A DNA stretch of 64,000 nt from Nitrospinaceae bacterium (lineage in GTDB: Bacteria; Nitrospinota; Nitrospinia; Nitrospinales; Nitrospinaceae), in the NCBI GenBank assembly GCA_024644405.1, contig JAHELC010000038.1, positions 124,001 to 188,000 of the forward strand, written 5' to 3'. Positions 9,811 to 36,850 of this stretch are shown one piece after another. How positions within the stretch are numbered: position 1 is the first letter of the stretch; each line of letters begins with the position of its first letter. The notes under the pieces are model-generated. The model was not told the DNA's origin. It saw only the letters and a program-made list of their open reading frames with translations, and made no database searches. The translations under genes were made by a program, and so were the position numbers.

Positions 9811-10764
9811 TCACACATGGTTCCTTAGCATGAGTTCCTTTGGATGCGGGTTTAGATATACCTGATCCAGCAAATATTCAATGTTGTATTTTTTGACTTG
9901 GTGTCGTATTAAAGTCACAGGAACGATTAGCGGGAGTAATTCTTTTCGATAATCTTCAAGGGTAGTCAGGATGTCTTCTTTTTCTCCTTTCGTCAAAACC
10001 TTTTTTAGAAATCCCATCATATGAAGTAAAACATCGGTGTTCTTTTTAGGTGTAGACTTATAGGTCAAGGCCTCCATAAACAATCTGCTGTACTGTATTT
10101 TTAGATCTTCCTGTTTTAGTGATTTCGCATTCGCCACCAACTTTCCCATGTCGGTATAATGTTTCCTGCTGTGAGCCAACATTAAAAACTTATGTCTCGT
10201 ATGAAAATCCACCAAAGCTCCTCTGGAAAATCCTTTATCCATAAGTTTCTTGAGCCTGTTAAAGGAAAACACCCGGACGATAAAGTTTTCACGGAATTTC
10301 GCGTCATTTAATCTTCCCTCATCCTCAATGGGGATCAAAGGAAATGTTTTTATAAAAGCATTGGCGAACATACCGGCCCTGTGTCTTGCCTTGCTGCGGT
10401 CGGTTTCTGAAAAAACTGGAACTCTGGCTATACCGCATGAAGGAGACTTGCTTTTAAAAATATAACCACAAAGATCGTCACGGGCCAGTTGGTTAATTCG
10501 ATCTTTTAAATAGCGGTTCATCCTGTCAGTCCAATCAGTTTTGCTTTTCTTGCTAATCATTTTTGGTGCTTCCAGAGTTCCATAAAGAGCGACGGTTTCT
10601 CTGGGAACTCCCATTCCTACTTCCATCTCTGGGCACACTGGCACATATTCAAAGTAATTGCCTAATATTTCACGAACAAATCGATCCTGTTTGTGGTCTC
10701 CATTCCATCGAACTTTTTCACCTATCAGACAACTGCTTACCCCGATTTTGATTGTGTTTTTCAT
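9811..10764 (-). CDS. DUF523-DUF1722 (YbgA-type) protein
   Basis: 317 residues. The N-terminal half (about 5-150) is DUF523, with conserved Cys and Gly motifs GVSSCLIGEKVRWNG, VCPEMEVGMGVPRE and KSPSCGI. The C-terminal half (about 190-305) is DUF1722, with VDFHTRHKFLMLAHS and an RHQVKKYNIEYLLDQVYL end. DUF523 is related to thiouracil desulfurase TudS, which uses an Fe-S cluster; the Cys residues here fit that. YbgA-type genes are classic neighbours of photolyase and LitR/CarH genes, and here a CarH gene lies 32 bp upstream. The exact reaction is not established. Confidence 0.88.
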   Translation of the reverse strand: MKNTIKIGVSSCLIGEKVRWNGDHKQDRFVREILGNYFEYVPVCPEMEVGMGVPRETVALYGTLEAPKMISKKSKTDWTDRMNRYLKDRINQLARDDLCGYIFKSKSPSCGIARVPVFSETDRSKARHRAGMFANAFIKTFPLIPIEDEGRLNDAKFRENFIVRVFSFNRLKKLMDKGFSRGALVDFHTRHKFLMLAHSRKHYTDMGKLVANAKSLKQEDLKIQYSRLFMEALTYKSTPKKNTDVLLHMMGFLKKVLTKGEKEDILTTLEDYRKELLPLIVPVTLIRHQVKKYNIEYLLDQVYLNPHPKELMLRNHV

Positions 10765-10796: not shown

Positions 10797-11714
10797 CTAG
10801 GATGAAGCAATTAAATTATTTATAAATGTATCCAGGTCGGGCAGGGTTTTTATAATTTTAATATTTTTATTTTCTATATAATTTTCCCGTTGAGCAATTC
10901 CCTGCCCGCCGGCCACCACAGGGCAAAGCGGCAAAATATGGTTGGCTATTTCAGCAAAAAAAACTCTGCTTTTGGCTTCGCCAAGGGGGGAGGTAAAAGA
11001 GAGAACCAACGCATCCGGTTTTGTGCCGGTGCAAAAATGAATCAAATCCTCCAGGGGAAGGTTGGCTCCCAAAAGAATTGCCTGGCATCCGAGGCCGGAA
11101 CAATGATAAGCAACCATTTGTGCCCCGATTTCATGTAATTCCCATGGAGGACAAGCAATTATAACTTTAGGTCCGTTTTGCATTCCCATCATGTCCATCA
11201 CGGCAAACAGTTTCTGTTTAACCTGAGTTGTCACGTAATGCTCAACAGCAATACCTACTTTGCCATCAAACCATAACTCTCCGACCCGAATTTGCAGGGG
11301 AATCAGCACCCGTTTAAAAACTTCTTCAAAAGGCAAAAGAGCTATAATCTCTCTCAACCTTTCCTTAAATGCGGACTGGTCTAGGGGCGTCAGACATTGT
11401 TCCAGATCCTTGATCAGAGGGTCTGTGGTATAAGTCTCATCTTCGGTTTTATCTACGGTTTCCTTCAATTCCTCACTATTCATACGGGCCAGAATTTCAT
11501 CTTTTCCCAGCGAAGCCAGCTCTCCGATGGATTGCCCCAGCTCAATTTCCTTGACCAGGTACTTCAATATATTCAGGTCCTCCTCTGAATAAAGACGGTA
11601 CCGGTTAGGCCCTCTTTTGGGAGAAATCAGCCGAAATCGCTTTTCCCAAACACGAAGGACTTCCTTCGATAAACCTGTCATTTTCGCTATTTGTTTGATC
11701 CGGTAAGTTTTCAT
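10797..11714 (-). CDS. CarH/LitR-type B12-dependent photoreceptor repressor (copy 1)
   Basis: 305 residues. A MerR-type winged helix (1-70, YRIKQIAKMTGLSKEVLRVW) is followed by a helical bundle and a cobalamin-binding Rossmann domain. The light-sensor signature W-x9-EH is present as Trp148...Glu158-His159, and the cobalamin motif ExHxxG is ELHEIG (192-197, lower ligand His194). Known CarH proteins bind DNA as adenosylcobalamin tetramers in the dark and release it when light breaks the Co-C bond. It is transcribed toward the DUF523-DUF1722 gene and away from the SUMF1/cytochrome block, with paired operator-like repeats between. A light-responsive repressor of both directions is likely. Confidence 0.93.
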   Translation of the reverse strand: MKTYRIKQIAKMTGLSKEVLRVWEKRFRLISPKRGPNRYRLYSEEDLNILKYLVKEIELGQSIGELASLGKDEILARMNSEELKETVDKTEDETYTTDPLIKDLEQCLTPLDQSAFKERLREIIALLPFEEVFKRVLIPLQIRVGELWFDGKVGIAVEHYVTTQVKQKLFAVMDMMGMQNGPKVIIACPPWELHEIGAQMVAYHCSGLGCQAILLGANLPLEDLIHFCTGTKPDALVLSFTSPLGEAKSRVFFAEIANHILPLCPVVAGGQGIAQRENYIENKNIKIIKTLPDLDTFINNLIASS

Positions 11715-11799: not shown

Positions 11800-11848
11800 A
11801 CAATTTGAACATTAAACAAACCTTGTGAAAATTTACTGGAGAAACGTC

Positions 11849-12901
11849 ATGAACACGAAACAAAAACTTAAGTCAGCAATAGCCGCCTTTGCACTGGCCG
11901 CTTTTATGGGCAACCCAAATGCTTGGGCAGAAACCCAGGTACCCGAAGACATGGTCCTGATTCCAGGCGGACCGTTTCTTATGGGGGTCGACAAAGAAGT
12001 AAATGCCAAAACAGAGAAAATGTCTAAAATAAAACGACTCAAATACTCCGTTTCCCGCGAAGCCTTCCATGATGAAGGTCCCGCCCACAACATCACTTTA
12101 GATACTTACTATTTGGACAAGTACGAAGTGTCCAACCAGCAATACGGGCAATTCATTAAAGCCACGGGACATCCCGCCCCGGCCTATTGGGACGATCACC
12201 TGCGAAACAAACCGAATCAACCCGTAAGCGGTGTGAATTGGCACGACGCCAACGCGTTTTGCAGCTGGGCCAACAAGCGCCTGCCGACGGAAGCGGAATG
12301 GGAAAAGGCCGCACGGGGTCCGGAAGGATACAAGTATCCGTGGGGGAACGAAGTGAACTCAAACAATGCAAACTTCGGCCGGAAACAGGAATTCACCGCG
12401 AACGTGGACGCCTATCCCGGCGGTAAAAGTCCCTACGGGGCCTACAACATGGCAGGAAACGTTTTTGAATGGGTCGCTGATTGGTATGACCCCAACTACT
12501 ACAAAAACAGGAAAGATATGACCAACCCGACCGGTCCGAAAGAGGGCGCGTTCCTGAGTAATACCGGCACTTACGTGGACCGTATTGCAGTCGGCAAGAA
12601 ACGTGTCATCCGCGGTGGATCCTGGTATGCCCCAGCGGAAAGCGTGACCAACACTCATCGTTTCTGGAACGATCCTATGAACAACAGTTATGGTGTGGGA
12701 CTTGGGTTTCGTTGCGCCCGTTCGGCGGAAGGTGAATCCGCGGATCAGGCTCGCACTTTTTACATGGAGGCTTTGATCCATATGGGTGCGGAAAAGTATC
12801 CGCAGGCGATGCAATCTATAGAAAAGGCGCTGAGCCAGGACGCATCTAACCCGGAATACCTGCAATTGCAGAAAATGATTCAAAAGCAGGTCCGGAACTA
12901 A
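11849..12901 (+). CDS. Exported SUMF1/FGE-sulfatase-fold protein (copy A)
   Basis: About 350 residues, starting at the ATG with GGAG 7 bp upstream rather than one 24 bp earlier. A signal peptide ends in AWA. The body is a SUMF1 (formylglycine-generating enzyme) fold: MVLIPGGPFLMG, YEVSNQQYGQFI, VSGVNWHDANAFCSWANKRLPTEAEWEKAARG, GNVFEWVADWYDP, RGGSW and a final GVGLGFRCARS. The two copper-binding active-site Cys of true formylglycine-generating enzymes are absent after RGGSW, so an FGE reaction is unlikely. Structural or redox-accessory SUMF1 proteins such as NirV are a better comparison. A C-terminal TPR-like helical pair (about 305-350) is shared with copy C. It heads a rightward block of exported redox proteins. 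Confidence 0.88.
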   Translation: MNTKQKLKSAIAAFALAAFMGNPNAWAETQVPEDMVLIPGGPFLMGVDKEVNAKTEKMSKIKRLKYSVSREAFHDEGPAHNITLDTYYLDKYEVSNQQYGQFIKATGHPAPAYWDDHLRNKPNQPVSGVNWHDANAFCSWANKRLPTEAEWEKAARGPEGYKYPWGNEVNSNNANFGRKQEFTANVDAYPGGKSPYGAYNMAGNVFEWVADWYDPNYYKNRKDMTNPTGPKEGAFLSNTGTYVDRIAVGKKRVIRGGSWYAPAESVTNTHRFWNDPMNNSYGVGLGFRCARSAEGESADQARTFYMEALIHMGAEKYPQAMQSIEKALSQDASNPEYLQLQKMIQKQVRN

Positions 12902-12909
12902 AACCTTTT

Positions 12910-12961
12910 CTCGGGTTTGATTTAAGAGGAGGGGATTCATTCCCTCCTCTTCAAACCGAGA
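12910..12961 (+). terminator. Long hairpin between SUMF1 copy A and the next gene
   Basis: A perfect 10-bp stem (AAGAGGAGGG at 12924 with CCCTCCTCTT at 12942) is extended by an outer CTCGG/CCGAG pairing. There is no T-run after it, so it may be an RNA-processing or stability element, or a leaky terminator, inside the operon. Confidence 0.5.
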
Positions 12962-12998
12962 CTTCTGGTGTTATCAAACAAAACCAGGAAAGTCAATC

Positions 12999-13379
12999 AT
13001 GAGACAAATCGTTCATTTTTTGAATAAATCAAATTTAACAGGGAGCTTTCTTCTCTGTGCTGCGTTGTTTCTCTTTATTCCAAGCTCGGGATTCTCTGAA
13101 AGTTCGCATGAGAAGGGCGTCGTCGGCAAGACCGCTCAAGCCCGGATGGCCGTCGAACAGGCATGGGAAACCTACCATCATGCCGCATTGGGTGGAACCC
13201 TGGCATCTCCCACGGTCCAGACCGAATTGGAAATGAATCTCCATATATCGCGTGCACTGCTTGCCGAAGCTTATGCAGCGGAAGATAGAGGCGACATGAA
13301 AATGACTCACAAATTGATCGAACAAATCTTGCAAATCACCGACACAGTCATCACTGAAAGCCAGGAGCCTAAAAAATGA
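12999..13379 (+). CDS. Exported protein of unknown function
   Basis: 126 residues, signal peptide ending near GFS-ES. The mature part is all-helical (QARMAVEQAWETYHHAALGG... LLAEAYAAEDRGDMK...), resembling small TPR-like or helical-bundle periplasmic proteins. It overlaps the start of the next SUMF1 gene by 4 bp, so translation is coupled. No family was recognised. Confidence 0.75.
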   Translation: MRQIVHFLNKSNLTGSFLLCAALFLFIPSSGFSESSHEKGVVGKTAQARMAVEQAWETYHHAALGGTLASPTVQTELEMNLHISRALLAEAYAAEDRGDMKMTHKLIEQILQITDTVITESQEPKK

Positions 13380-14188
13380 CAGCTGTATCTAAATTTTTAA
13401 ATTTGACCTTTCTAGTATGCCTGGTTTCGGCGTTGTGCAATCTCCACACCGAGGTTAATGCAGATTCCTTAAAGAAGGAAAGAAGAGACCCGGTTGCGAT
13501 GGCAATTATTCCGGCGGGAGAGTTTTTGATGGGCAGCAAACAGAGAGAGGGCAGAGCAGATGAACGACCGCAGAGAAATGTATTTCTGGATACGTATGCA
13601 ATTGATGTCTATGAAGTGACCAACCAACGTTATCTAAATTTCATTCATGCCACCGGACGTAAAGAACCGCCGAATCCCTACGGCGAGATATTACTGTCGG
13701 AAGAATCAGGAATCGATCATTTACCTGTGGTTCAGGTGACCTGGTATGACGCAGTTGATTATTGCAATTGGGCGGGAAAACACCTGCCGACGGAAGCGCA
13801 GTGGGAAAAAGCGGCGCGGGGAGATCGCGGATCCTTATTTCCCTGGGGAACCCAGTCCCCCCAAACAAAGCCGGTCAATTTTGAAAGGAACTGGGATGGA
13901 ACCAGCACCCTTTGGACGGTTGGATCACAAACAGGGACTGAATCGCCTTATGGAATACACGATATGGCCGGAAATGTTCGCGAATGGACACAGGATTGGT
14001 ATGGCTCGGATTATTACGCAACCGCCCCCGCCAGGAACCCGCAAGGTCCGGGAACAGGAATTCTGAAGGTCATCAAGGGCGGTTCCTGGCACAGCTTTAA
14101 AGCGGATGTTCGGCCGGCTTCAAGAGGTAAAGGCGGATTCGCGCTTAAAACCGATGGTATTGGATTTCGTTGCGCCAAAAATAGATAA
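13376..14188 (+). CDS. Exported SUMF1/FGE-sulfatase-fold protein (copy B)
   Basis: 270 residues with an N-terminal signal segment (ending around VNA-DS). Core SUMF1 motifs are MAIIPAGEFLMGS, YEVTNQRYLNFIHATG, VTWYDAVDYCNWAGKHLPTEAQWEKAARG, GNVREWTQDWYGSDYY, IKGGSWHSF and GIGFRCAKN. It is shorter than copies A and C because it lacks their C-terminal helical extension. The FGE catalytic Cys pair is absent after the KGGSW stretch, so it is unlikely to make formylglycine. Translational overlap with the small exported helical protein suggests the two work together. Confidence 0.87.
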   Translation: MTAVSKFLNLTFLVCLVSALCNLHTEVNADSLKKERRDPVAMAIIPAGEFLMGSKQREGRADERPQRNVFLDTYAIDVYEVTNQRYLNFIHATGRKEPPNPYGEILLSEESGIDHLPVVQVTWYDAVDYCNWAGKHLPTEAQWEKAARGDRGSLFPWGTQSPQTKPVNFERNWDGTSTLWTVGSQTGTESPYGIHDMAGNVREWTQDWYGSDYYATAPARNPQGPGTGILKVIKGGSWHSFKADVRPASRGKGGFALKTDGIGFRCAKNR

Positions 14189-14224
14189 AAAAAATTAAAA
14201 GCAATCAGACTTTGGGAGGCCCCT

Positions 14225-15307
14225 ATGGGTTGGCATTCAAAAAAATTAGCGATCAAACTTGTAACTCTATTACTGTTGACCGTATTCGCCGGAACATCGT
14301 TTCCCCTTACGAGCGCAGCTGAACCCCCGGCTCCAGAAAATATGGCCCTGGTCAATGCCGGCGGGTTTATGCGGGGGATTGATAAACCCCCAGCCACGCA
14401 CGCCAACGCTATTCGATCATCGTCTCAGAATACGAATTTCCCGGTTTTAAAGGAAGCGTTTGCGGATGAGGGCCCGGCTCGAATGATTTATCTCAGCGCC
14501 TATTTCATTGACACGTATGAGGTTTCCAATGCCCGGTACATTGAGTTTATCAAAGCCACCGATTATCCCGCCCCCGCGTATTGGGACCATCATCAACTCA
14601 ATCAACCCAACCAACCGGTCACCGGGGTGAACTGGTACGACGCGAACGCCTATTGCCACTGGGCAAATAAAAGGCTACCAACGGAAGCTGAATGGGAGAA
14701 AGCCGCGCGTGGGCCCGCGGGCTCCATCTATCCCTGGGGTAATGAACTGGATTACAGCAAGGCTAATTTCCAAAAAGGTAAAACCGGTCAGAAGCATATT
14801 ACGGTTCCCGTGGACGCTTACCCTGAGGGAAAGAGTTATTACGGTGTCTACAACATGGCCGGAAACGTATTTGAGTGGGTCCAGGACTGGTACGATCCGA
14901 ATTATTACAAGACATCCAAAGAAGTAAGAAATCCAAAAGGTCCTCAATTCGGAATTAAAATTGGAACAACTGGAACCTATCTGAACCAACAAGTTACCGG
15001 GAAAAAGAAAGTGATCCGTGGCGGCTCCTGGTTTGCTCCAGCCCAAAGCATCACCACCACCCATCGCTTTTGGAATGACCCCATGAACAACTCTTACGGA
15101 GTAGGACTGGGTTTTCGATGCGCCCGCAGTGTGGAAAGCGATTCACAAATGCAAGCTCGTTCTTTTTATATGGACGCACTTATTCAAATGGGTGCCGAAA
15201 AATACAAGGAAGCCATGATTTCCATTAACAAAGCCTTAAAAAACAATCCCGATAACAAAGAATATCGAAAACTCAAGGCAATGATTGAAGAACAGAGCAA
15301 TCTTTAG
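14225..15307 (+). CDS. Exported SUMF1/FGE-sulfatase-fold protein (copy C)
   Basis: 360 residues and a close paralogue of copy A along its whole length, including PAYWD(D/H)H, the LPTEAEWEKAARGP stretch, FEWVxDWYDPNYYK, RFWNDPMNNSYGVGLGFRCARS and the C-terminal helical pair (QARSFYMDALIQMGAEKY). A GGAGG ribosome site precedes the ATG. The hydrophobic segment around 12-30 is a signal peptide or anchor. The FGE active-site Cys are missing as in A. Two such copies around a divergent third suggest local duplication in this operon. Confidence 0.87.
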   Translation: MGWHSKKLAIKLVTLLLLTVFAGTSFPLTSAAEPPAPENMALVNAGGFMRGIDKPPATHANAIRSSSQNTNFPVLKEAFADEGPARMIYLSAYFIDTYEVSNARYIEFIKATDYPAPAYWDHHQLNQPNQPVTGVNWYDANAYCHWANKRLPTEAEWEKAARGPAGSIYPWGNELDYSKANFQKGKTGQKHITVPVDAYPEGKSYYGVYNMAGNVFEWVQDWYDPNYYKTSKEVRNPKGPQFGIKIGTTGTYLNQQVTGKKKVIRGGSWFAPAQSITTTHRFWNDPMNNSYGVGLGFRCARSVESDSQMQARSFYMDALIQMGAEKYKEAMISINKALKNNPDNKEYRKLKAMIEEQSNL

Positions 15308-16262: not shown

Positions 16263-17147
16263 ATGATACAAATCACATACATCAGTTCTGAAGCCAGGCC
16301 CATGCTAAAAGCCGATCTGGACGACATTCTCAGCAGTAGCCGAAAAAACAACATTGAGTTGGGAATTACGGGAATGCTACTTTATGGAAATAAAACTTTC
16401 ATTCAAATACTGGAAGGAGACGAAACACTCGTTGAGGGTTTACTACGCAAAATAAAAAAAGATCCACGCCACACGGACTTCAGGCTGGTTTCCAAAAAAG
16501 AAATCAAGAAACGTCAGTATTTGGAATGGAGTATGGGCTTTAAGAATATTGTCGGGGACAATTTTGAGTCAATCGAAGGTATTCAAAAATTAGATCAGAA
16601 AGATTTTAATGCATCGTTCCTGGCCAATCATGCAAATATTGTCGATGCTTTAATGGAGCATTACCGCAAAGAACGGTCAAAGAAAATCAAGAATGAGGAA
16701 TTATCTCTACATGAGGAAGATAAACTCATCGTAGCACTTCATCGCACTATTCGAACAGTGGTCAAAATTTTAGCGGTCTTCATGGTTTTTGTGATTATTT
16801 TTGGAATTGTAGATGTAATTTATGACATTTACGATAGTTTAATTTCTCCAAGCTTAATAAATTTTAAAACAAACTCGATTGTTTCTACATTCGGTGGCTT
16901 CTTGGCAGTTCTAATTGCCATCGAAATTTTTATGAACATCACATTGTACATCCGCAAAGATGTCATACATATAAAACTAGTTGTTGCGACAGCGCTCATG
17001 GCAATTGCTCGAAAAGTGATTATTTTTGATTTCAAGCAAATCACACCAATTTATATTTTCGGTACAGCTTCGGTCATCCTGGCTTTGGGGATCACCTACT
17101 GGCTCATTAGAAAAGAATCGCATTTCGACGACGAGCAGCAGACTTGA
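16263..17147 (+). CDS. BLUF blue-light photoreceptor fused to a PsiE-like membrane domain
   Basis: 294 residues. The N-terminal BLUF domain (1-95) has every key flavin-pocket residue at the spacing of AppA: Tyr6, Asn29, Gln48 (FIQILEG), Trp89 and Met91 (WSMGF). After a charged linker (about 125-155) come four predicted membrane helices (about 165-285) matching PsiE, the phosphate-starvation-inducible family: FGGFLAVLIAIEIFMNI, IKLVVATALMAIARKVIIFD and ILALGITYWLI. BLUF domains usually join enzymes or partner proteins; I know of no described BLUF-PsiE protein. The likely role is to pass a blue-light signal into or across the inner membrane. It lies among exported cytochromes in an island with two CarH genes. 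Confidence 0.9.
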   Translation: MIQITYISSEARPMLKADLDDILSSSRKNNIELGITGMLLYGNKTFIQILEGDETLVEGLLRKIKKDPRHTDFRLVSKKEIKKRQYLEWSMGFKNIVGDNFESIEGIQKLDQKDFNASFLANHANIVDALMEHYRKERSKKIKNEELSLHEEDKLIVALHRTIRTVVKILAVFMVFVIIFGIVDVIYDIYDSLISPSLINFKTNSIVSTFGGFLAVLIAIEIFMNITLYIRKDVIHIKLVVATALMAIARKVIIFDFKQITPIYIFGTASVILALGITYWLIRKESHFDDEQQT

Positions 17148-20374: not shown

Positions 20375-23194
20375 ATGGCCTATTCAAATTTAGTCAATCA
20401 AAAAACTATCAAAGCTTGGTTGTCATGGGGTCTTTTGTGGATCGTCCTATTTCCTTTAATTGGCGCATTCGTTTCTTTGAAATTTCATAATCCCGAAATC
20501 TTCGAGGAATTACCCTGGCTGACTTTTGGTCGGATACGCCCGGTTCATGTTAATGGCGTGATCTTCGGATCTTTCTCGACTATATTTATCGGCCTTATTT
20601 ATTATGCTGTTCCCTTACTTTGCGGAAGGAGGTTATACAAGGAAAACTGGTCCATTGGCCTTTTATGGTTGTGGAATATTTTTATCATCCTTGGAAGCGT
20701 TTCTTTATTCCTTGGTTACAATCTAGGTCTCGAAGTTGCAGAATTTGAGTGGCCTTTGAATGTCATTCGCGGTTCTGTATTGCTGGGCATTGTCATTCAA
20801 GTATTGGGCACGATTCTTCAACGAACTGAACCCCGGCTTTATGTTTCCCTCTGGTATATAACGGCCGCATTTGTATGGACCCTTTTTAATTTATTCTTGG
20901 GAAACGTGATTCTACCTTATGCGGAAATTTCAGGTACTGACAGTGCTGCAATGCATGGCCTGTATATCCACTATATAGTGGGCTTATGGATGACGCCGGC
21001 AGGTTTGGCAATAATCTATTTTTATCTTCCTTTAAGCCTCAGGCAGCCTTTATTCAGCCATAAGCTATCTTTACTCGGGTTTTGGGTTCTAGCCTTCTTT
21101 TATCCGTTTGTGGGTACCCATCACTATATTTACAGCCCCATCCCCTATTGGACTCAAACTATTTCCATTGCCACGGGGTTTATGTTGATTCTATCCGTCT
21201 TTGCCGTGACCGTTAATTTTTACGGAACGGCTCGAAATGAATGGCGCAAAGTTTTGGGTGGAGAAGGGGCAGATTATACAGCAGCAAAATTTCTACTACT
21301 TGGGGCACTATTCTATTTATTAGGAAGTGTCCAGGGTTCTCTGGAGGGCTTGCGGAGAATACAGGCGCTAACTCATTTTAATGATTTTGTCATTGGCCAC
21401 TCTCATTTAACGGCATTTGGCGGTATGGTAAGTTGGATTATAGGGGGGATCTATTTTGTTTGGCCTAGGGTAACCAATAGACAGCTTTGGAGCAATCGAC
21501 TGGCAACCTGGCATCTTTGGTTAACCATTATCGGTTTTGGAATCATGCTTGCTTCTCTGACTATTCAGGGATTGGTTCAGGGGTTTTTATTGGAAAATGG
21601 AGTCAGCTTTTTTAGTTCAATTGAGACTATTAAAACTGGCTGGATTGTAAGGACCCTGGGTGGCTTGGCCATGATTCTTGGTCTTGCCTTAATGGTTTTC
21701 AATTTACATAAAACCACCCGGCAAGGCGAACTTCTTAATAAAGATATTGAAGAGGACGCCGGAGCTCAAAAACTTCCTCTTCGATCCATCGCTCAAAAAA
21801 ACTGGGTGGAATCACCCTCCACTATTGTATTTGCTGCTGGAGTCGGATTTTTTTCGCTTGCTGTACTTATTCAGGGAGTGCTTCCTACGCTAACCTTTAA
21901 CAAACAGGCAGCAACTGTGAAGGAGACCATGACAGGTTCAACCATCAGTGTTCCCACTTACAGCGAAGAGGAGACACAGGGCCGGCAGGTTTTTATTCGA
22001 GAGGGTTGCTGGTATTGTCACTCGCAATATATCCGTCCAGTTACCGGAGAGCCTCGTCGATGGGGGCCCGTTTCACAGAGGGGCGAATATGCTTATGACC
22101 GCCCGCATTTATTTGGAACTCGTCGAATAGGACCTGATTTATCCCGGGCGGGAAGAAAGTATGGTGATGATTGGCATATTGCTCATTTCTGGAACCCAAG
22201 AGATGTGGTTAGAAATTCTATTATGCCCAGATTCCGCTGGTTGTTTGAAAAAAATGAAAATCAGGAACCCATTCTAAATCAAGACGGAAAAGCTCTGGTT
22301 ACTTATATTCAGCGATTGGGAACCCGTATCGGTGATTGGCGGGAAGGGTTCGTCTCTACTTCGATTTTACAAGGGACTTTGGTCACTTTTAATACTCCCA
22401 AGCAACAAAACGTGTTAGCCGTTGGGAAAAAAGTTTACGAAGATTATTGTCAGGGTTGTCATGGGCTCAATGGAGATGGAAAGGGGCCTGCTGCGAAATT
22501 TCTGAATCCCAAACCCAGGGATTTTACCAAAGGAATATTCAAATTCCACTCCACCCCGGGAAAAGATTCTCTTCCCACGGATAGTGATCTTTATTACACC
22601 TTGAAGCACGGTCTTTGGGGAACCTCCATGGCCGCCTGGTATTCCCTTAACAATGATGAACTGTTTGGCGTCATTCAATACTTAAAGACATTTTCCAAGC
22701 GATGGGAAAGTGAAGAATTAAAGGAATCCATTTCTATACCTCAGGAACCAGAACCCACGCTGGAATCTTTAAATAATGGAGGGAAACTATTCCAAAGCAA
22801 TTGCATGGTCTGCCATGGTCCAAAGGGAGAGGGAAACGGGCCTTTGGCCGGCAGATTAAAAGATACCTGGGGGTATCCGATAAAACCTGCAAATTTCAAC
22901 CTGGCTGCCGGAAAAACAGGAGGAGTAAAATTAGGACGTGACAGCCGTCACCTCTTTATAACTTTGGTAGTCGGGATCGGGGGAGTTGCCATGCCACTTT
23001 ATCAGGACAAATTATCTCCCTCGGAAATTTGGGATATTGTGCATTACGTCCAATCACTGCGGGTGAGAGCCTATGAAAGCACTTTGCTGGAAGCTGGGTT
23101 GGAAACAAAGGACTTGGAAACATTGCGAAATCAAATTTGGACGGTGGTCAGGGCAGGCGATGAAGAAAAATCTATAGAGAAGGTCGCACAGTAA
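20375..23194 (+). CDS. Single-chain cbb3-type oxidase: CcoN and CcoO fused to two cytochrome c domains
   Basis: 939 residues. Residues 1-480 are a CcoN-like haem-copper subunit with about 12 membrane helices: low-spin haem His in RPVHVNG, CuB-type HH in GTHHYIYSPIPYW (the cross-linked Tyr lies in PIPYW) and haem ligands in VIGHSHLTAFGG. After another membrane anchor (about 490-515) a CcoO-like domain has CWYCHSQYIRP at about 545. Two further c-type domains have CQGCHG at about 692 and CMVCHG at about 810. Separate CcoN, CcoO and CcoP genes are the usual layout, so this is a four-part fusion carrying three c haems. It reduces oxygen with electrons from periplasmic cytochromes. The 61-residue protein encoded next may be its small subunit. 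Confidence 0.92.
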   Translation: MAYSNLVNQKTIKAWLSWGLLWIVLFPLIGAFVSLKFHNPEIFEELPWLTFGRIRPVHVNGVIFGSFSTIFIGLIYYAVPLLCGRRLYKENWSIGLLWLWNIFIILGSVSLFLGYNLGLEVAEFEWPLNVIRGSVLLGIVIQVLGTILQRTEPRLYVSLWYITAAFVWTLFNLFLGNVILPYAEISGTDSAAMHGLYIHYIVGLWMTPAGLAIIYFYLPLSLRQPLFSHKLSLLGFWVLAFFYPFVGTHHYIYSPIPYWTQTISIATGFMLILSVFAVTVNFYGTARNEWRKVLGGEGADYTAAKFLLLGALFYLLGSVQGSLEGLRRIQALTHFNDFVIGHSHLTAFGGMVSWIIGGIYFVWPRVTNRQLWSNRLATWHLWLTIIGFGIMLASLTIQGLVQGFLLENGVSFFSSIETIKTGWIVRTLGGLAMILGLALMVFNLHKTTRQGELLNKDIEEDAGAQKLPLRSIAQKNWVESPSTIVFAAGVGFFSLAVLIQGVLPTLTFNKQAATVKETMTGSTISVPTYSEEETQGRQVFIREGCWYCHSQYIRPVTGEPRRWGPVSQRGEYAYDRPHLFGTRRIGPDLSRAGRKYGDDWHIAHFWNPRDVVRNSIMPRFRWLFEKNENQEPILNQDGKALVTYIQRLGTRIGDWREGFVSTSILQGTLVTFNTPKQQNVLAVGKKVYEDYCQGCHGLNGDGKGPAAKFLNPKPRDFTKGIFKFHSTPGKDSLPTDSDLYYTLKHGLWGTSMAAWYSLNNDELFGVIQYLKTFSKRWESEELKESISIPQEPEPTLESLNNGGKLFQSNCMVCHGPKGEGNGPLAGRLKDTWGYPIKPANFNLAAGKTGGVKLGRDSRHLFITLVVGIGGVAMPLYQDKLSPSEIWDIVHYVQSLRVRAYESTLLEAGLETKDLETLRNQIWTVVRAGDEEKSIEKVAQ

Positions 23195-23423: not shown

Positions 23424-25875
<2,452 letters not shown>

Positions 25876-27029: not shown

Positions 27030-27407
27030 TCAAACAGACCTATGCCTAAATAAGTTCAAGTCCTCGACACGTTGTTTGGAATGAACGACCACTGGCTTGG
27101 GATAGTTCTTGCCCATAATACAGTTGGCTCTTTCCTGTTCTTCAAGTGTGGCATCGTGGGGCCAATGAATATATTTATTGGAAAATTCAGACAATTCCGG
27201 AAGGTGTTTTCTTATAAATTTTCCTTCCGGATCAAATTTTTTCGATTGGGTGACCGGATTGAATATTCGAAAATAAGGTTGCGCGTCGTATCCGGTCGAG
27301 GCACACCATTGCCATCCACCATTATTCGCCGCCAGATCGTAATCCAAAAGTTTCTCGGCAAACCATCGTTCCCACTTCCGACAGTCCATTAGTAAATCCT
27401 TAGTCAA
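27030..27407 (-). pseudogene. C-terminal remnant of a class I DNA photolyase
   Basis: The 125 codons match only the end of PhrB-type photolyases: SYLTKDLLMD, the FAD-domain stretch AANNGGWQWCASTG, APYFRIFNP-like QPYFRIFNP, and KFDPEGKFIRKHLPEL. Homology runs a few codons upstream of the first possible start and is then cut by a stop codon. About three-quarters of the enzyme, including the antenna domain and most of the FAD pocket, is missing. The 125 bp beyond it contain no photolyase sequence. The location fits LitR/CarH clusters, where photolyase is a usual member, so the function has been lost here. Confidence 0.88.
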
Positions 27408-28740: not shown

Positions 28741-29538
28741 TTATTCAGCTCCCACAGCCCGTCTGTCATGCTTTGGAGGTCCTGGGAAAAAGGCATTGGT
28801 ATTGGCAATGTATTCACGATAAGCCGGACGGCGCTTGACAATGGTTTCCTCAAGCATGACAACACCTGAAAATTTCAATAGCAGCCAGGTGATGAGTAAC
28901 GGGCCGGGAATACTCCACCACGCGCCACTGCTAACTGCGAACAGATAGAAACCCCACCATAGGAGGCATTCGCCAAAATAGTTAGGATGACGTGTGTAAT
29001 ACCACAAACCGTGCGCCATCACTTTTCCCTGATTGGCGGGATCTGACTTGAATCGGCTCAACTGCCAGTCAGCGACCGACTCAAAGAAGAAACCGGCAAA
29101 CCAGAGTACAATAGCCAGGGCATCCCAAAAACTGAAGGCAACGTTATTTGTAATTGCAGGCCAGAGGGGCATTAAAATAACCCATGCAAGAACACTCTGA
29201 AATATAAAAATTATAAATAGGCTTTTAAAGGCAAAATTGGGTGCATATTTATCACGTATCACTCGATATCGGCGATCTTCAGGTTCACCCCAATTTCTCC
29301 ACGTTAAATACAAAAAGAGCCGTACAGACCACAAAAAAACCATAACAAGAATAATCTGAGTGCGAAGATTGTAGTCGTTTACATCAAAGGCTAATGCTAC
29401 AACTCCGAACAGAAACATAAGCGGCCATGCGCTGTCTACAATACTTACATCTTCAAGAATAAGACTGATGATCCATGTGATAAAACCAACAGCCAATATC
29501 GCTGCCAAAGCGAAAAAGTAAATGGAATAATCAATCAT
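28741..29538 (-). CDS. DUF1295 (steroid 5-alpha-reductase-like) membrane protein
   Basis: 265 residues with about six membrane helices. The family signature is near the C-terminus: AHGLWYYTRHPNYFGECLLWWGFY, with PAYREYIANTNAFFPGPPK after it. Related enzymes reduce double bonds with NADPH. In LitR/CarH clusters it appears with the CFA-like genes, so modification of membrane fatty acids is the likely context. It heads a four-gene leftward run ending in the photolyase remnant. Confidence 0.9.
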   Translation of the reverse strand: MIDYSIYFFALAAILAVGFITWIISLILEDVSIVDSAWPLMFLFGVVALAFDVNDYNLRTQIILVMVFLWSVRLFLYLTWRNWGEPEDRRYRVIRDKYAPNFAFKSLFIIFIFQSVLAWVILMPLWPAITNNVAFSFWDALAIVLWFAGFFFESVADWQLSRFKSDPANQGKVMAHGLWYYTRHPNYFGECLLWWGFYLFAVSSGAWWSIPGPLLITWLLLKFSGVVMLEETIVKRRPAYREYIANTNAFFPGPPKHDRRAVGAE

Positions 29539-29584
29539 AATAACTTCCTTGAAAGATCCGGATAAACATCAAAATACTTGGATA

Positions 29585-29598
29585 TATTGACTAACAAT
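29585..29598. promoter_or_regulatory. Candidate CarH operator upstream of the DUF1295 run
   Basis: TATTGACTAACAAT differs at one base of 14 from TATTGACAAACAAT in the carH copy 1 intergenic region (11769-11782). It lies about 50 bp upstream of the DUF1295 start, where repression would be effective. Confidence 0.45.
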
Positions 29599-29699
29599 CG
29601 CGTAGAAACAGCCCATCCAAACGTAAGTGAAACCGAAGGTAGTTCAAGGTTAAAAACTCCAAATCACCATCTCAACTTTCACCCTGAAAGGTTACTGAG

Positions 29700-30083
29700 T
29701 TACTTGGAAGTGGTTCTGTTTTTTAAAGCTTGTTTAACACCTTTTCCTATTTCAGTCATCCGCTCTTTGTTCACTCCCATATCGCTGTACCCCGTCCGCG
29801 AAGCGGATCGAAAATGAATAAGTTTGTTTTCGGGATCAAGTACAAACTCTACATCGTCTGTAAAACCGAATATTTTGCTCTTAAAGGTGTAGTGCAGGTA
29901 GTGGGTGGATTCACTTTGTAACTCTGTTCTTTGAAGACTTTCGACAACATTTTTTATAATTTTTTTGACCTCTTTGGGATCCAGAGCAAACGAAATGGGG
30001 TCCATCTTTTTGCTTTTCTGCTGTGTCTGCGTGGAAACACAGTTTGGGCTTTCCGGACATTTCTTAAGTTGACGTTTAGTCAT
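29700..30083 (-). CDS. DUF1499 protein
   Basis: 127 residues. The N-terminal CPESPNCVST is the DUF1499 signature, followed by a beta-rich domain with DDVEFVLDPENKLIHFRSASRTGYSDMGVN. No signal peptide is visible. The family is common in LitR/CarH clusters and near photosynthesis genes; its function is unknown. It overlaps the upstream gene by 4 bp. Confidence 0.88.
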   Translation of the reverse strand: MTKRQLKKCPESPNCVSTQTQQKSKKMDPISFALDPKEVKKIIKNVVESLQRTELQSESTHYLHYTFKSKIFGFTDDVEFVLDPENKLIHFRSASRTGYSDMGVNKERMTEIGKGVKQALKNRTTSK

Positions 30084-30490
30084 TTTATTCGCTCCATATG
30101 ACTCTCGATTTTATTTGTATAGACATGTTTTAAAATTAAAAAGAATGGGATCCACCAAATAAGATCGTTTGTAATGATATGAACGCCAAATATAAGAGGA
30201 AGCTCATCTTTAATAATGGCTACGGAAAATCCTATTGGCCCAAAAATCTTACCAAGAAATCCCACTAACACAATCGGCCAATGAATCAATGGATTAGTGG
30301 CTGCAATCCAATACCCCAAACCATAAACCCCTACAATCATTCCAATACATTGCCACAATTGAGGATATAGGGGAGGAGGCATTCCCAAAACCTCAAAACT
30401 TTGTATGGGAAGCAATATGGCCATAGATCCCCACGCCACGTTATAAATAGCGGCCAGTTTCAAGGTTATTTGCATCGCATTGATTGACAT
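30080..30490 (-). CDS. Four-helix membrane protein of unknown function
   Basis: 136 residues from an ATG preceded by GAGGAG; a TTG 12 bp upstream is less likely. Predicted helices lie at about 12-30, 48-66, 72-95 and 105-122. Loops contain PPPLYPQLWQCIGMIVGVYGLGY and IFGPIGFSVAI. Similar four-helix proteins occur in light-regulated lipid clusters, but I cannot name the family. Confidence 0.7.
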   Translation of the reverse strand: MSINAMQITLKLAAIYNVAWGSMAILLPIQSFEVLGMPPPLYPQLWQCIGMIVGVYGLGYWIAATNPLIHWPIVLVGFLGKIFGPIGFSVAIIKDELPLIFGVHIITNDLIWWIPFFLILKHVYTNKIESHMERIK

Positions 30491-30528
30491 AGTACTCCTC
30501 AACTTTAAACTCTGATCAATTCATACTT

Positions 30529-31017
30529 CTATGACAAAACTTTATTGGGTGAAAACTTTTTCCCGTATTTGTTAAAAACAATCTTTAAAAAAAAGAAAAG
30601 AACAAAAAATAAGGGAATGGAAGTTAATACCCACCCGAAACAGGCCAGAATCAAGTATTGGGATAATTCGCTGATAGCTTGAAAAAAATCGACATTGAAT
30701 GCGGAAATCAGAGTCGACTTGGAAATTTCCTTCAGATTTCCTCCTGAAATGGTTTCCCCGATCTCTAAAAAAGGAAAAAATAAAATAATTTGCATGGGGA
30801 AAGCCATGTAGTTTGCCACTTGAATGGCTGGTAAATTCAGATGAAGCAACAGCGCAGCCAAGGTACAAAGAAGGGTAGTGGTCCCGAGAACCGGAAAAAC
30901 ACTGAGAGTCATACCCAGTGCAATCACCAGGGCCAATTTTGACGGACTCAATCCCTGCTTTAATAGATTGATCAGCGGTAAGGATATTTTCTCTTTAAAG
31001 ACGGATGTAACTTTCAT
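30529..31017 (-). CDS. DUF2062 membrane protein
   Basis: 162 residues. The DUF2062 pattern is clear: LLKQGLSPSKLALVIALGMTLSVFPVLGTTTLLC, then LNLPAIQVANYMAFPMQIILFFPFLEIGE, and a final hydrophobic pair. Function unknown; often found near lipid or polysaccharide genes. No gene is seen in 31018-31129. Confidence 0.85.
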   Translation of the reverse strand: MKVTSVFKEKISLPLINLLKQGLSPSKLALVIALGMTLSVFPVLGTTTLLCTLAALLLHLNLPAIQVANYMAFPMQIILFFPFLEIGETISGGNLKEISKSTLISAFNVDFFQAISELSQYLILACFGWVLTSIPLFFVLFFFLKIVFNKYGKKFSPNKVLS

Positions 31018-31129
31018 AACGAGCTTTCAAAATAAAAACAGATGAAAATCAATCATCAAAACTTTTTAAAAAAATTAGTAATTCTTATCATTCTAACTGT
31101 TTGTCTTGCTCCAGTTCAAAGTTTCATCT

Positions 31130-31462
31130 TTAAACCTTTGGCAAAAATATCTCGGTGAAAGAGCTGCTTTTGGTGGCTCGATAAATGAAATAGACAAGTG
31201 TTGCGAGATTACCTAATAAATAGAGCGATATTGTCCATACAACTCCCTTGATCACGCTGTGTTCCATGACACCGATCCAGACACCAATGAAAGTCAATGC
31301 GATATAAATGTCCACTAATGTTGTCAGCCCCCAGCGGTTGGCTATTAATTGCTCCAATCCCACGAAAACATCCGATTCCATGCTGGCCCAGACAATACAA
31401 CCCAGCAATAAAATGAGCAGTACCACTGCCAGCAGAATGGGAATTATAATTGTTGTTTTCAT
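31130..31462 (-). CDS. DUF1475 membrane protein
   Basis: 110 residues, three to four membrane helices, with WGLTTLVDIYIALTFIGVWIGVMEH and VVWTISLYLLGNLATLVYFIYRA, matching DUF1475. It starts 3 bp after the methyltransferase stop, so it is translated from the same message. Confidence 0.8.
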   Translation of the reverse strand: MKTTIIIPILLAVVLLILLLGCIVWASMESDVFVGLEQLIANRWGLTTLVDIYIALTFIGVWIGVMEHSVIKGVVWTISLYLLGNLATLVYFIYRATKSSSFTEIFLPKV

Positions 31463-31465
31463 TGT

Positions 31466-32509
31466 TTACCCTTCCAATTTATTTTTGGAGAAGAGGTAAT
31501 GAGATACCCCCCACTCGCTGCCATCGCGATATCCAAATAACTCTGCGCAGGCCATAAAAAATATTCTCCATCGATAAAACCATTTTTTTGAATTGTGATT
31601 GCCGTAGACTTGGGAAAACAGATTAAGAATTTTATCCTTATGCTCATCCATATTGTGAAGCCAGGCCTCGGCCGTTTTTTGGTAATGTTGTCCTCCCCAC
31701 CACCATTTGGAATCCAAGCTCAGGTCCTCTTGAAAGTAACCCGGTAAATCGACAGAAGGCATAACCCCTCCGGTGAAGAAGTAGCGTCCCATCCAATTAT
31801 CATCACCCTCCGTTTCGAAAAAATAGGGGAACCGCTGGTGACAAAAAATATGGAAGAACAATTTGCCATCCGGTTTCAACCAGGAGGCAATTCGTTTCAT
31901 CAAACAATAGTAATTGCGCATATGCTCGAACATTTCTATGGAAACTACCCGATCAAATTGCCCAGAAGGCTCAAACGTGTTCATGTCACAGGTAATTACA
32001 TTCAAATTGGTTATAGATTTGCGGTTGCAAATATCCACGATAAATTTCCGTTGATCCCGTGAATTGGAAACTGCGGTCATTTTACAATTAGGATATTGTT
32101 CAGCAATCCAGAGAGAGAGGGAGCCCCAGCCGCAGCCCAGCTCCAGAATTTTCATACCATCTTCTATTTGTGCGCGTTCGCATGAAATCCTTAAAGCGGC
32201 GGCCTCTGCTTCCGTGAGAGTTTGGGTTTTTTCTACCCAGAAACACCCGCTGTATTTTTTGTGGTCGCCAAGTACCATTTCAAAAAACTGCGGAGGCAAT
32301 TCATAATGCTGAGCGTTGGCATCATCGGTATGCAGGGCAATGGGACCGCTCTTCATTTGAGACGCGAACTTCTCTTTTGAAAATGACTCATCATGAATAA
32401 AAAATTTGGATTCATCCCGCAATCTCCGGATTGACAGACGGCGGATTCCCCATCGAGTCAAACGGTCGGGTACCAATCCACGCTCCATTAAATTGATCAA
32501 ACTTTCCAT
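31466..32509 (-). CDS. CFA-synthase-like SAM-dependent methyltransferase
   Basis: 347 residues from the ATG with GGAG-like spacing (MESLINLM). Motif I is LELGCGWGSLSLWIAEQYP; others are NSRDQRKFIVD, FDRVVSIEMFEHMRNY and a C-terminal WRIFFMACAELFGY. The domain resembles cyclopropane-fatty-acid synthase but lacks its full N-terminal domain. In LitR/CarH clusters this second CFA-like enzyme accompanies the canonical one; the modified lipid is not certain. Confidence 0.88.
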   Translation of the reverse strand: MESLINLMERGLVPDRLTRWGIRRLSIRRLRDESKFFIHDESFSKEKFASQMKSGPIALHTDDANAQHYELPPQFFEMVLGDHKKYSGCFWVEKTQTLTEAEAAALRISCERAQIEDGMKILELGCGWGSLSLWIAEQYPNCKMTAVSNSRDQRKFIVDICNRKSITNLNVITCDMNTFEPSGQFDRVVSIEMFEHMRNYYCLMKRIASWLKPDGKLFFHIFCHQRFPYFFETEGDDNWMGRYFFTGGVMPSVDLPGYFQEDLSLDSKWWWGGQHYQKTAEAWLHNMDEHKDKILNLFSQVYGNHNSKKWFYRWRIFFMACAELFGYRDGSEWGVSHYLFSKNKLEG

Positions 32510-32575
32510 CACGTATTCTCCTTTGGAACCAGCATCATTATTAAGCACCAATGTAAAAAAAATTCAGCTGGTTCA

Positions 32576-33889
32576 TTAATTTATCTCTTCAATTGGAGAG
32601 CTGGTATTTAAATCCGGTAATATTGGGTCCATCCGGCACAAGGGTTTGGTAAAAATCATTTGCACGTCCCCTATCTGGCGTTCGAGAAACCCCCCCTCGC
32701 AGTAGCAAAAATAGAAATTCCACAAACGGATAAATTCTTCAGAAAATCCCTGTTCACGGATTTCCTTGACGTTTTGAATAAACCGTTGCCTCCAATGGTT
32801 CAGTGTAGTTGCGTAGTGGGGCGTAATATCCTCCAAATGGAACAAGCGCATGTCGGTTGTCCTTCCAGCGGAATCACACAATGCGCTGATGGAAGGAATA
32901 CAGCTTCCAGGAAAAATATAGGTTTTGATGAAATCCGCAAATCGCTTGGCATCCTCATAAAGATGATCAACAATTATGATTCCCTGTAGCAGCATACGTC
33001 CTTCATCATGCAATAGGTCATTGCACTTGCGGAAGAAGTCGTCGAAATAGTGGTGTCCGACCGCTTCAATCATTTCAATAGAAACCAACTTGTCATACCG
33101 ACCAGTCAAATCCCTATAATCCTTTTTAATCACTTGGATTTTGTCATTGAGTCCGGCGTCTTGAACTCTTTGTCGAGCATAGTTATATTGTTTTTGGGAA
33201 ATAGTTGTGGTGGTGATGCGACACCCATAATGCTTCGCTGCGTGAATGGCGAACCCACCCCATCCCGTTCCAATTTCTAAAACATGATCTTCAGGAGATA
33301 GCTCAAGTTTTCGACAGATACGTTCAATTTTGCAGATGGAAGCCTGTTCAAGTGAGCTGGATTCGGTTTCAAAAATTCCGCAGGAATACATTCTTGTTTC
33401 GTCCAGAAAAGTCGAAAAAAATTCGTTGCCCAAATCATAGTGAGCCGTGATATTCCTCAAGCTGTTTTTCCGTGTGTTGCGCCGCATGGAATGGAGCAGT
33501 CTGAATATCCAGGAGGCCACCTTCGATAGTCCGCCTTCCAGTTTGTCGGCAAGGTGTCGGTTACGGATGAAAATACGGATCAACGCGGTCAAATCATCAC
33601 AAGACCACCAGCCTTGTATATAAGCCTCGGCTGCACCATTCAATCCCTTGGTGATTATTTCTGAATACATCTTTGCATCTAAAACTTTTATAACTGATGA
33701 AATTTCGAAGTCAGAGGTGAAAGCTCCGAAATGTGTAATTTTGTTTCCTTCAAGCACCGTTAACCGTCCGGTTGTCAATTCCTGAAATTTTGTGAGCACA
33801 GCCTTCCGGGCAATAGAATCCCAGGAAGCACCTGTTTCTTTTTTGACCAAGGGAAAACTTTTTGGAATGATTGATTCTTTATGTAGCAT
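32576..33889 (-). CDS. cfa: Cyclopropane-fatty-acyl-phospholipid synthase family protein
   Basis: 437 residues. An N-terminal lipid-binding domain (about 20-140) precedes the methyltransferase: ITAHYDLGNEFFSTFLD, MYSCGIFE, motif I LEIGTGWGGFAIHAA, IEMIEAVGHHYFDDFF and FIKTYIFPGSCIPS. It would add a methylene group from SAM across a double bond of phospholipid acyl chains, or form a furan/methyl lipid as in some light-regulon homologues. It shares one base with the DUF1365 stop, so the two are coupled. Confidence 0.92.
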   Translation of the reverse strand: MLHKESIIPKSFPLVKKETGASWDSIARKAVLTKFQELTTGRLTVLEGNKITHFGAFTSDFEISSVIKVLDAKMYSEIITKGLNGAAEAYIQGWWSCDDLTALIRIFIRNRHLADKLEGGLSKVASWIFRLLHSMRRNTRKNSLRNITAHYDLGNEFFSTFLDETRMYSCGIFETESSSLEQASICKIERICRKLELSPEDHVLEIGTGWGGFAIHAAKHYGCRITTTTISQKQYNYARQRVQDAGLNDKIQVIKKDYRDLTGRYDKLVSIEMIEAVGHHYFDDFFRKCNDLLHDEGRMLLQGIIIVDHLYEDAKRFADFIKTYIFPGSCIPSISALCDSAGRTTDMRLFHLEDITPHYATTLNHWRQRFIQNVKEIREQGFSEEFIRLWNFYFCYCEGGFLERQIGDVQMIFTKPLCRMDPILPDLNTSSPIEEIN

Positions 33890-34677
33890 TATTCTGCTCC
33901 CGGTTGCTTAGGTAATAATTTTGCATCCTCGCGATATTTGGGGTGTGAATAGAAGGGACAGTTTTTCATCCAAAGGCGGAATGCTTGAAAGTAAATACCC
34001 CAAACCACTTTTAAAGTGAGGAACGGATACTGAATTAAAACTCGCGCCAGCGAGGTGTGAGAAATATCAGAACGGATCATACCTAGCGAGACGTCGAATA
34101 ATTTTTGATCTCCCTCCCAGTTTTCCATGTGTATCCGAAATTTATCTCCCAGCTCGCTGAATGACCATACATATTTCAATCCCATATCCATAAAGGGTGA
34201 AATATGAAAATCTTTCTTAAAGGTAAATTGGTTATTTCCATCCTGAACTTGTTTCTCCACTTTTAATACGTAACAATGCTGCTCCCCCCAAGGGGTATTG
34301 TTGATTTCAGCTATGATGGTTTCTATTGTTTCTTCATTTTTGCTCCAACAAAAATAAAAGCTCACCGGATTGAAGCAGAATCCGAAATAACTTAAATGAG
34401 TCATTAACTGAATAGGACCCTGGGGTCGTTTTCCGGTTTTTGCTTCCACCAAATCCCGGACCGCCTGATCCAAAGGTATTTCGGCATTTCCCACATGGTC
34501 TCGGCGGCTAAAATATGCCAGATTCCGGGATTCTATCGACCAAAACCAATATGGTCTAAAGACTTCCTCCAGCTCATCCAACCTCAGGCAGACCATAAAC
34601 AGGGAGTACCTGAAGATATGCGAGAGAGGATGGTATCTTTTATGCAGTACCCGTCCTTCATAAAGACAACTTTTCAT
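33889..34677 (-). CDS. DUF1365 protein
   Basis: 262 residues with the DUF1365 pattern: LYEGRVLHKRYHPLSHIFRYSLFM, LMTHLSYFGFCFNPVSFYFCW, EINNTPWGEQHCYVL and KDFHISPFMDMGLKYVW. It is always found between the FAD oxidase and the CFA-like gene in such clusters, and directly abuts the oxidase gene here. Presumably acts on the same lipid; the reaction is unknown. Confidence 0.92.
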   Translation of the reverse strand: MKSCLYEGRVLHKRYHPLSHIFRYSLFMVCLRLDELEEVFRPYWFWSIESRNLAYFSRRDHVGNAEIPLDQAVRDLVEAKTGKRPQGPIQLMTHLSYFGFCFNPVSFYFCWSKNEETIETIIAEINNTPWGEQHCYVLKVEKQVQDGNNQFTFKKDFHISPFMDMGLKYVWSFSELGDKFRIHMENWEGDQKLFDVSLGMIRSDISHTSLARVLIQYPFLTLKVVWGIYFQAFRLWMKNCPFYSHPKYREDAKLLPKQPGAE

Positions 34678-35922: not shown

Positions 35923-35932
35923 GATTCAGTTC

Positions 35933-36850
35933 CTACCTCAATGAAGCCAATTTGGCTTTTTCGGGGACCAATCTCAAATCCCACACCAATCCCACCTTGG
36001 ACATTAGGATTAAAATCCAATAGGTAATATCGATCTCCCACCAAAAGAACCCTTGTTGAACAGAAGCGGGGTAATGGTGATGGTTGTTGTGCCACCCTTC
36101 ACCCAGGGTCAATAGAGCCATCCAAAAATTGTTACGGCTGAAGTCTCCAGTTTGGTAACGCCTTTTTCCAAAAAGATGAGCCAGCGAATTTGTCGCAAAA
36201 GTTGCATGGAATAAGATTATTGTTGAGATCAGGCCCCAGACCAGCAACTGCAGACCACTGGTTCCCAGTTGAGGAAAATATGAGTTCAGTATCTCCCCAA
36301 AAAGAAATAGCAGTATCCCCAAGGCAAGAGGACTCAATATATCGAACCGATCGATCAACCGTAACTCAGGAAAACGATTAAAGTCCTCAATGAATTCGGT
36401 TTTTGTTCTAAAATTTGACTGGCAGGAAAACCAGAACAAATGGCTCCATAAGAATCCATGTTGAACAGGTGAGTGGGTATCCTCTGGTAAATCCGAAACA
36501 CGATGATGATTTCGGTGATGGGCCGCCCACCATAGAGGGCCTCGTTGAACGGATGAGGCCCCAATGACTGCAAAAACAAACTGAAACCATCGAGAAGTCT
36601 TGAATGCTCGATGTGAAAAATAACGGTGGTAAAAGGCAGTAATGGCGAACATCCGAAACAAATACAATGCTAAGGCAACCATCACCGCCGTGGTACTGAC
36701 GCCTACCCAAAGTACACCTAAGCAAGCAAAGTGGAGGGCAAAGAATGGGATACAGCGAAACCAATCGATTTCTGTGGAGTTTTCATCCAGATTGGCAATT
36801 CCTGCCTGACTGTCAAACCATCTTGCGAGGGTTGTGAATAGTTCCGACAT
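35933..36850 (-). CDS. Membrane acyl-CoA/acyl-lipid desaturase (delta-9 type)
   Basis: 305 residues. The three di-iron His boxes are HRYFSH (about 96), HRNHH (about 131) and HNNHHH (about 257), with the usual four membrane helices between. It introduces a double bond in fatty acyl chains and so would supply the unsaturated substrate for the CFA-like enzymes next to it. Gap of 10 bp to the FAD oxidase gene. Confidence 0.92.
   Translation of the reverse strand: MSELFTTLARWFDSQAGIANLDENSTEIDWFRCIPFFALHFACLGVLWVGVSTTAVMVALALYLFRMFAITAFYHRYFSHRAFKTSRWFQFVFAVIGASSVQRGPLWWAAHHRNHHRVSDLPEDTHSPVQHGFLWSHLFWFSCQSNFRTKTEFIEDFNRFPELRLIDRFDILSPLALGILLFLFGEILNSYFPQLGTSGLQLLVWGLISTIILFHATFATNSLAHLFGKRRYQTGDFSRNNFWMALLTLGEGWHNNHHHYPASVQQGFFWWEIDITYWILILMSKVGLVWDLRLVPEKAKLASLR

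Follow-up and report, generated by a model that had tools for sequence, protein, structure and literature searches.

The BLUF-PsiE gene and its domains

The window analysed here, a 64,000-nucleotide stretch of a Nitrospinaceae genome, carries on its forward strand a single unbroken open reading frame (16263-17147, 294 aa) in which a BLUF domain is followed by a PsiE domain. The frame opens with ATG at 16263, closes with a stop codon at 17145-17147 and is free of internal stops in the whole-genome contig. It is the sole BLUF gene of the genome (2.98 Mb in 40 contigs). Its parts are listed below.

16263-17147, forward strand: BLUF-PsiE coding sequence, 294 aa (open reading frame and Pfam)
16263-16538, forward strand: BLUF domain, residues 1-92 (Pfam PF04940, E=5.7e-30)
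16539-16757, forward strand: linker, residues 93-165 (AlphaFold2 model and alignment conservation)
16758-17120, forward strand: PsiE domain with four predicted membrane helices, residues 166-286 (PF06146, E=3.9e-37)
16923-16925, forward strand: codon of E221, acidic in 92 of 92 PsiE domains
17010-17012, forward strand: codon of R250, arginine in 92 of 92 PsiE domains

The original prediction, made from the letters alone, read this gene as a BLUF-PsiE fusion whose four C-terminal helices belong to the PsiE family. Both points are confirmed by hmmscan against Pfam, which places the two domains in one frame and far above the curated cut-offs: PF04940 scores 103.7 bits against a cut-off of 25 over profile positions 1-92 of 92, and PF06146 scores 127.6 bits against 23.9 over positions 2-121 of 122, 104 bits above its cut-off. 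No NCBIfam model fits the protein. The possibility of a missed stop, raised at the same time, is ruled out by the intact frame in the contig and by the recurrence of the fusion in other assemblies. An assembly join is likewise excluded, as independent assemblies and a complete plasmid (NZ_CP020372.1) carry the same fusion. BLUF and PsiE are fused in one gene.

The BLUF domain has a complete flavin pocket. We take the pocket of AppA to be Y21, N45, Q63, W104 and M106. The claim that all five residues are found here at a constant offset of 15 holds, except that the asparagine had been placed at position 29; AppA numbering minus 15 gives N30. Y6, N30, Q48, W89 and M91 are all present and invariant in the 24 fused BLUF domains; at position 29, only 15 of the 24 have asparagine. 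The best solved matches found with Foldseek are TePixD (Tll0078) and Slr1694, which are also the best by sequence, and the fold superimposes on TePixD with an rmsd of 1.0-1.1 over 95 columns. The domain thus resembles those of PixD/Tll0078, Slr1694, AppA, OaPAC, bPAC, BlrP1 and BluF/YcgF, which have the full pocket as well. Known BLUF proteins act through oligomer change or through cyclase, EAL or protein-binding regions, and to our knowledge none of those just named has a membrane output domain. In contrast to these short or enzyme-coupled proteins, the output of the window protein would be a four-helix membrane domain.

The C-terminal 121 residues belong to PF06146, the family of E. coli PsiE and of orf14 from tLST/LHR, which are single-domain proteins, whereas the domain here is fused to BLUF. 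PsiE is found in bacteria and archaea, and the gene owes its name to induction by phosphate starvation in E. coli. The open-access literature on PsiE and orf14 gives no established function (PMC8290217, PMC7010813), in agreement with the original prediction.

The AlphaFold2 model of the protein is of moderate confidence (mean pLDDT 73, pTM 0.47); it does not settle how BLUF and PsiE are arranged relative to each other. For the PsiE part it predicts helices at residues 154-194, 203-232, 237-254 and 262-291, the third of them short, and hydropathy agrees. With an even count of membrane helices, both termini would lie in the cytosol, where the FAD is. Within the linker (93-165), which is conserved in the alignment of fusions, a predicted helix at 124-145 is followed by a low-confidence stretch (143-153) and then by helix 154-194, which enters the membrane as membrane helix 1. 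A separate model of PsiE (25 sequences, pLDDT 69) has no match in the PDB at E < 0.001; leukotriene C4 synthase and other helix bundles came up as candidates for the fold, and these are chance matches of no significance. With no solved fold to compare, the output of PsiE cannot be read from structure.

Two charged residues stand out in the predicted membrane part. Position 221, in membrane helix 2, is acidic in all 92 PsiE domains of every type (Glu in 87, Asp in 5), and position 250, in membrane helix 3, is arginine in all 92. Such universal charges would suit a small channel or carrier in which E221 and R250 form part of a gate or pathway that BLUF opens or closes, a narrower form of the explanation preferred below. 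A hint in the same direction comes from the tLST stress island, where PsiE-like orf14 and the K+/H+ antiporter KefB are neighbours in the part devoted to oxidative stress (PMC8290217). However, PsiE matches the fold of no channel or transporter, no transport data on PsiE were found, and a buried acid-arginine pair can be purely structural. We therefore regard a light-gated ion or proton pathway as unlikely.

Distribution and evolution of the fusion

The architecture search that the original prediction had suggested finds BLUF with PsiE in three phyla, Nitrospinota, Nitrospirota and Pseudomonadota. A scan of species genomes yielded 16 further full-length fusions, 17 with the window, which are 47-84% identical to the window protein: 84% in Nitrospinota, 66% for two in Nitrospirota (tblastn) and about 50% for the rest. 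Other hosts are Chromatiaceae (Thiodictyon, Thiocystis, Lamprocystis, Thiorhodococcus, Thiohalocapsa), Rhodopila, Hyphomicrobium and others, and many of the hosts are phototrophs. Both nitrogen-cycle bacteria and purple sulfur bacteria are thus represented among the carriers of the pairing. One example is the cultured Candidatus Thiodictyon syntrophicum Cad16T, in which the fusion lies on the complete plasmid pTs485 (NZ_CP020372.1) and is annotated merely as PsiE family. In Thiohalocapsa, a further BLUF protein lacking PsiE is encoded 1.6 kb away from the fusion (L018:10536-11306, reverse strand).

The fusion is sparse within phyla. In the phylum of the window it occurs in 3 of 77 genomes, where most BLUF proteins are short and single-domain. 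Six of 399 sampled Pseudomonadota genomes have it, including the centre genome of the sample; the other five form a divergent subgroup, for which one member was checked with Pfam. Most of the remaining long PsiE frames of GC-rich Pseudomonadota turned out to be read-through and not fusions. Only two of these loci, L096 and L097 (the latter from a Thiocystis violacea genome), encode PsiE with an extra N-terminal domain of about 100 residues. This domain has no Pfam match and may be a third type of PsiE sensor.

Purifying selection acts on both domains. Compared with fusion locus L004, dN/dS is 0.06 for BLUF, a rough value given that dS is near saturation, and 0.07 for PsiE; between loci L005 and L113 it is 0.09 and 0.05, respectively. 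A tree built from 92 PsiE domains places those fused to BLUF together, along with a small number of single-domain relatives. The main group, with 19 members, forms one clade, and a single origin of the fusion is not rejected (p-AU 0.59). Alphaproteobacterial members sit among Chromatiaceae sequences, which points to horizontal transfer.

A second sensor on the same membrane domain

BLUF is not the only sensor joined to PsiE. Most matches in a phylum-wide search for PsiE lie in frames of about 310 aa, the N-terminal part of which is Protoglobin (PF11563). This arrangement was found in 17 of 17 such loci read in Nitrospinota, in 6 of 6 long frames read in Nitrospirota and in one from Pseudomonadota. 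In the phylum of Desulfoferrobacter, matches spanning both domains occur in 37 of 297 genomes. Protoglobin-PsiE is far commoner than BLUF-PsiE. The loci with this architecture are L034-L050, L125-L131 and L132-L156, for instance L144:1459-2385 on the forward strand.

The closest solved structure to the PsiE-fused globin is PDB 2w31, which we take to be the globin domain of the globin-coupled sensor of Geobacter sulfurreducens (compare PMC4686822, PMC4476040). Over 156 residues, the L144 protein shares 64% identity with the 2w31 domain, and its PsiE domain lies at residues 189-303. The output of the Geobacter sulfurreducens sensor is reportedly a membrane domain of unknown function. The likeness suggests that PsiE may be this orphan output, by way of L144 and not from the full-length Geobacter protein. 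BLUF-PsiE follows the same plan, a cytosolic sensor N-terminal to PsiE; however, the sensor of the globin-coupled protein is a heme globin and that of the window protein is BLUF, and their PsiE domains fall in separate clades. The window protein has BLUF in place of an N-terminal protoglobin, so its likeness to globin-coupled sensors is one of plan and not of membership. The genome also encodes a second PsiE gene, on another contig (C16; L003:1432-1878, forward strand, 149 aa), which lies within the globin-PsiE clade and has no globin, an apparent case of sensor loss.

The case for PsiE as an output module rests most strongly on these two unrelated cytosolic sensors, placed in the same order on the same membrane domain. 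They suggest a membrane switch that interchangeable sensors can operate. The original prediction held that the fusion may expose the function of PsiE. What stands is that PsiE is seen as the output of cytosolic sensors, of which BLUF is not the sole one; the role of PsiE is not revealed by the fusion alone.

Light-response genes around the fusion

The window is rich in genes of the kinds associated with light responses. These are listed below.

9814-10764, reverse strand: RudS-like gene, 2-thiouracil desulfidase plus DUF1722 (Pfam)
10800-11714, reverse strand: CarH/LitR-type MerR regulator with B12-binding domains (Pfam; Wx9EH and ExHxxG intact)
23509-25875, forward strand: KatG-like catalase-peroxidase (Pfam peroxidase, 2.1e-72, two stretches)
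27030-27407, reverse strand: DNA photolyase remnant, C-terminal part only, about 125 residues (PF03441 positions 83-201)
28741-36850, reverse strand: DUF1295, two cyclopropane-fatty-acid-synthase-like genes, DUF1365, FAD amine oxidase and fatty acid desaturase (Pfam)
40365-41288, reverse strand: second CarH/LitR-type MerR-B12 regulator (Pfam, genome scan; Wx9EH and ExHxxG intact)

The motifs Wx9EH and ExHxxG are known from CarH. The genome has four B12_2 matches: the two window regulators, a frame of similar length on contig C21 and a 1211-aa frame that is probably MetH. Two of the three B12_2 genes of MerR-regulator length therefore sit 4.5 and 23 kb from the sole BLUF gene. The photolyase remnant matches the intact L004 photolyase at 71% identity across 123 aa, and the genome has an intact photolyase elsewhere, on contig C3. 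Other fusion loci have similar neighbours. One MerR-B12 regulator lies a few kb from the fusion in L004, L005 and L006, and a photolyase lies downstream of it in L113 (directly, on the same strand), L005 (1.3 kb) and L004 (2.8 kb). A CbiX-like chelatase gene in L004 (7436-7984, forward strand) ends just before the start of BLUF-PsiE, and its homologues adjoin MerR-B12 genes in L005 and L006; a link to B12 supply is possible.

Related gene sets have been described in other bacteria. RudS genes occur in light-responsive operons together with PhrB and LitR (PMC11417400), and the RudS-like gene of the window, which would encode a tRNA 4-thiouridine desulfidase, adjoins a MerR-B12 regulator in the same pairing. 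The light-induced regions of Pseudomonas contain genes for photolyase, the furan-fatty-acid synthase UfaM and an FAD oxidoreductase (PMC9758184). With its MerR-B12 regulators, RudS-like gene, cyclopropane-synthase-like genes, FAD oxidoreductase and photolyase remnant, the window is like the LitR/CarH clusters of Pseudomonas and Thermus; however, no BLUF-PsiE gene is reported in those clusters (PMC9758184, PMC11417400). The fusion has no conserved operon partner among its loci, as gene order is kept solely by close relatives: the window shares it with L004, and L005 with L006. The fusion loci of Chromatiaceae show neither a cluster of light genes nor MerR-B12 neighbours.

The two regulators flanking the gene in the window, and the one near it in L004, L005 and L006, raise the prospect that BLUF-PsiE is a membrane-tethered anti-repressor. 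The lit BLUF domain would bind and inactivate a MerR-type repressor, whether a flanking CarH/LitR protein or another, and PsiE would serve mainly as an anchor. There are precedents in the action of E. coli BluF on BluR and of PmSB-LOV on PmlR2 (PMC9758184). However, both window regulators keep Wx9EH and ExHxxG and so appear to sense light through B12 themselves, with no need of a partner, and the Chromatiaceae loci offer no MerR-B12 target nearby. PsiE is also at least as conserved as BLUF and keeps its charged membrane residues, which a mere anchor would not need. An anti-repressor role is unlikely on this evidence.

The nearest upstream genes are not light genes. Three proteins resembling FGE/sulfatase-modifying factors are encoded close together at 11825-15307 (forward strand); next come two small c-type cytochromes, immediately upstream of BLUF-PsiE. 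Further downstream, a 939-aa chain (20375-23194, forward strand) combines heme-copper oxidase subunit I with a FixO-like part and additional cytochrome c domains. The adjoining cytochromes, and the fact that the other sensor of PsiE is a globin, would fit a flavin redox sensor in which the BLUF fold reports the state of quinone or oxygen, parallel to the globin, instead of light. Against this, all residues of the BLUF photocycle are invariant, which would be superfluous for pure redox sensing, many hosts are phototrophic, and light genes abound in the wider surroundings. A sensor of redox state alone is accordingly very unlikely.

A proposed membrane photoreceptor

Conservation across several phyla, an intact flavin pocket, the PsiE membrane domain and surroundings rich in light genes make a membrane photoreceptor the natural reading of this protein, as judged from sequence. 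We consider it reasonably likely that BLUF-PsiE provides a light-controlled membrane output in a photo-oxidative response. It would be a blue-light receptor of the inner membrane, in which light is absorbed by FAD bound to BLUF at the cytosolic N-terminus. A hydrogen-bond switch at Y6 and Q48 would then alter the C-terminal side of BLUF, and the helical linker would relay this change to membrane helix 1, bringing the four-helix PsiE domain, with its conserved E221 and R250 in the membrane part, into a new state. PsiE would be the output, as it apparently is for the globin in protoglobin-PsiE, and could act by ion or proton flux, by transport or by touching a partner protein. The protein would probably act as a fast, post-translational arm of the photo-oxidative stress response, beside the slower transcriptional arm of CarH/LitR encoded around it. 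The photochemistry, dimerisation, coupling via helix 1 and role in stress are all steps that we infer.

A bolder and improbable extension is that PsiE is a general sensor-gated membrane effector, forming a pathway for ions, protons or small solutes. BLUF-PsiE would then be a natural, one-piece, flavin-based light-gated conductance distinct from the rhodopsins, and heme globin would gate the same effector in Geobacter-type sensors.

The original prediction took the pairing of BLUF with PsiE to be undescribed. This fits the outcome of a search confined to open-access papers, in which no description of the fusion was found. BLUF and PsiE occur together there as gene names in a stress survey of E. 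coli, as separate genes, and other co-mentions are unrelated by title. Each domain was already known, and the combination appears to be new. That a blue-light flavin sensor and a heme globin sensor are both mounted on PsiE says that PsiE is an output device, a finding with implications for how the crystallised Geobacter globin-coupled sensor produces its output. As light can be switched at the bench, BLUF-PsiE makes the function of PsiE directly testable. If the output is a conductance, the protein would offer a flavin-based optogenetic tool in a single chain.
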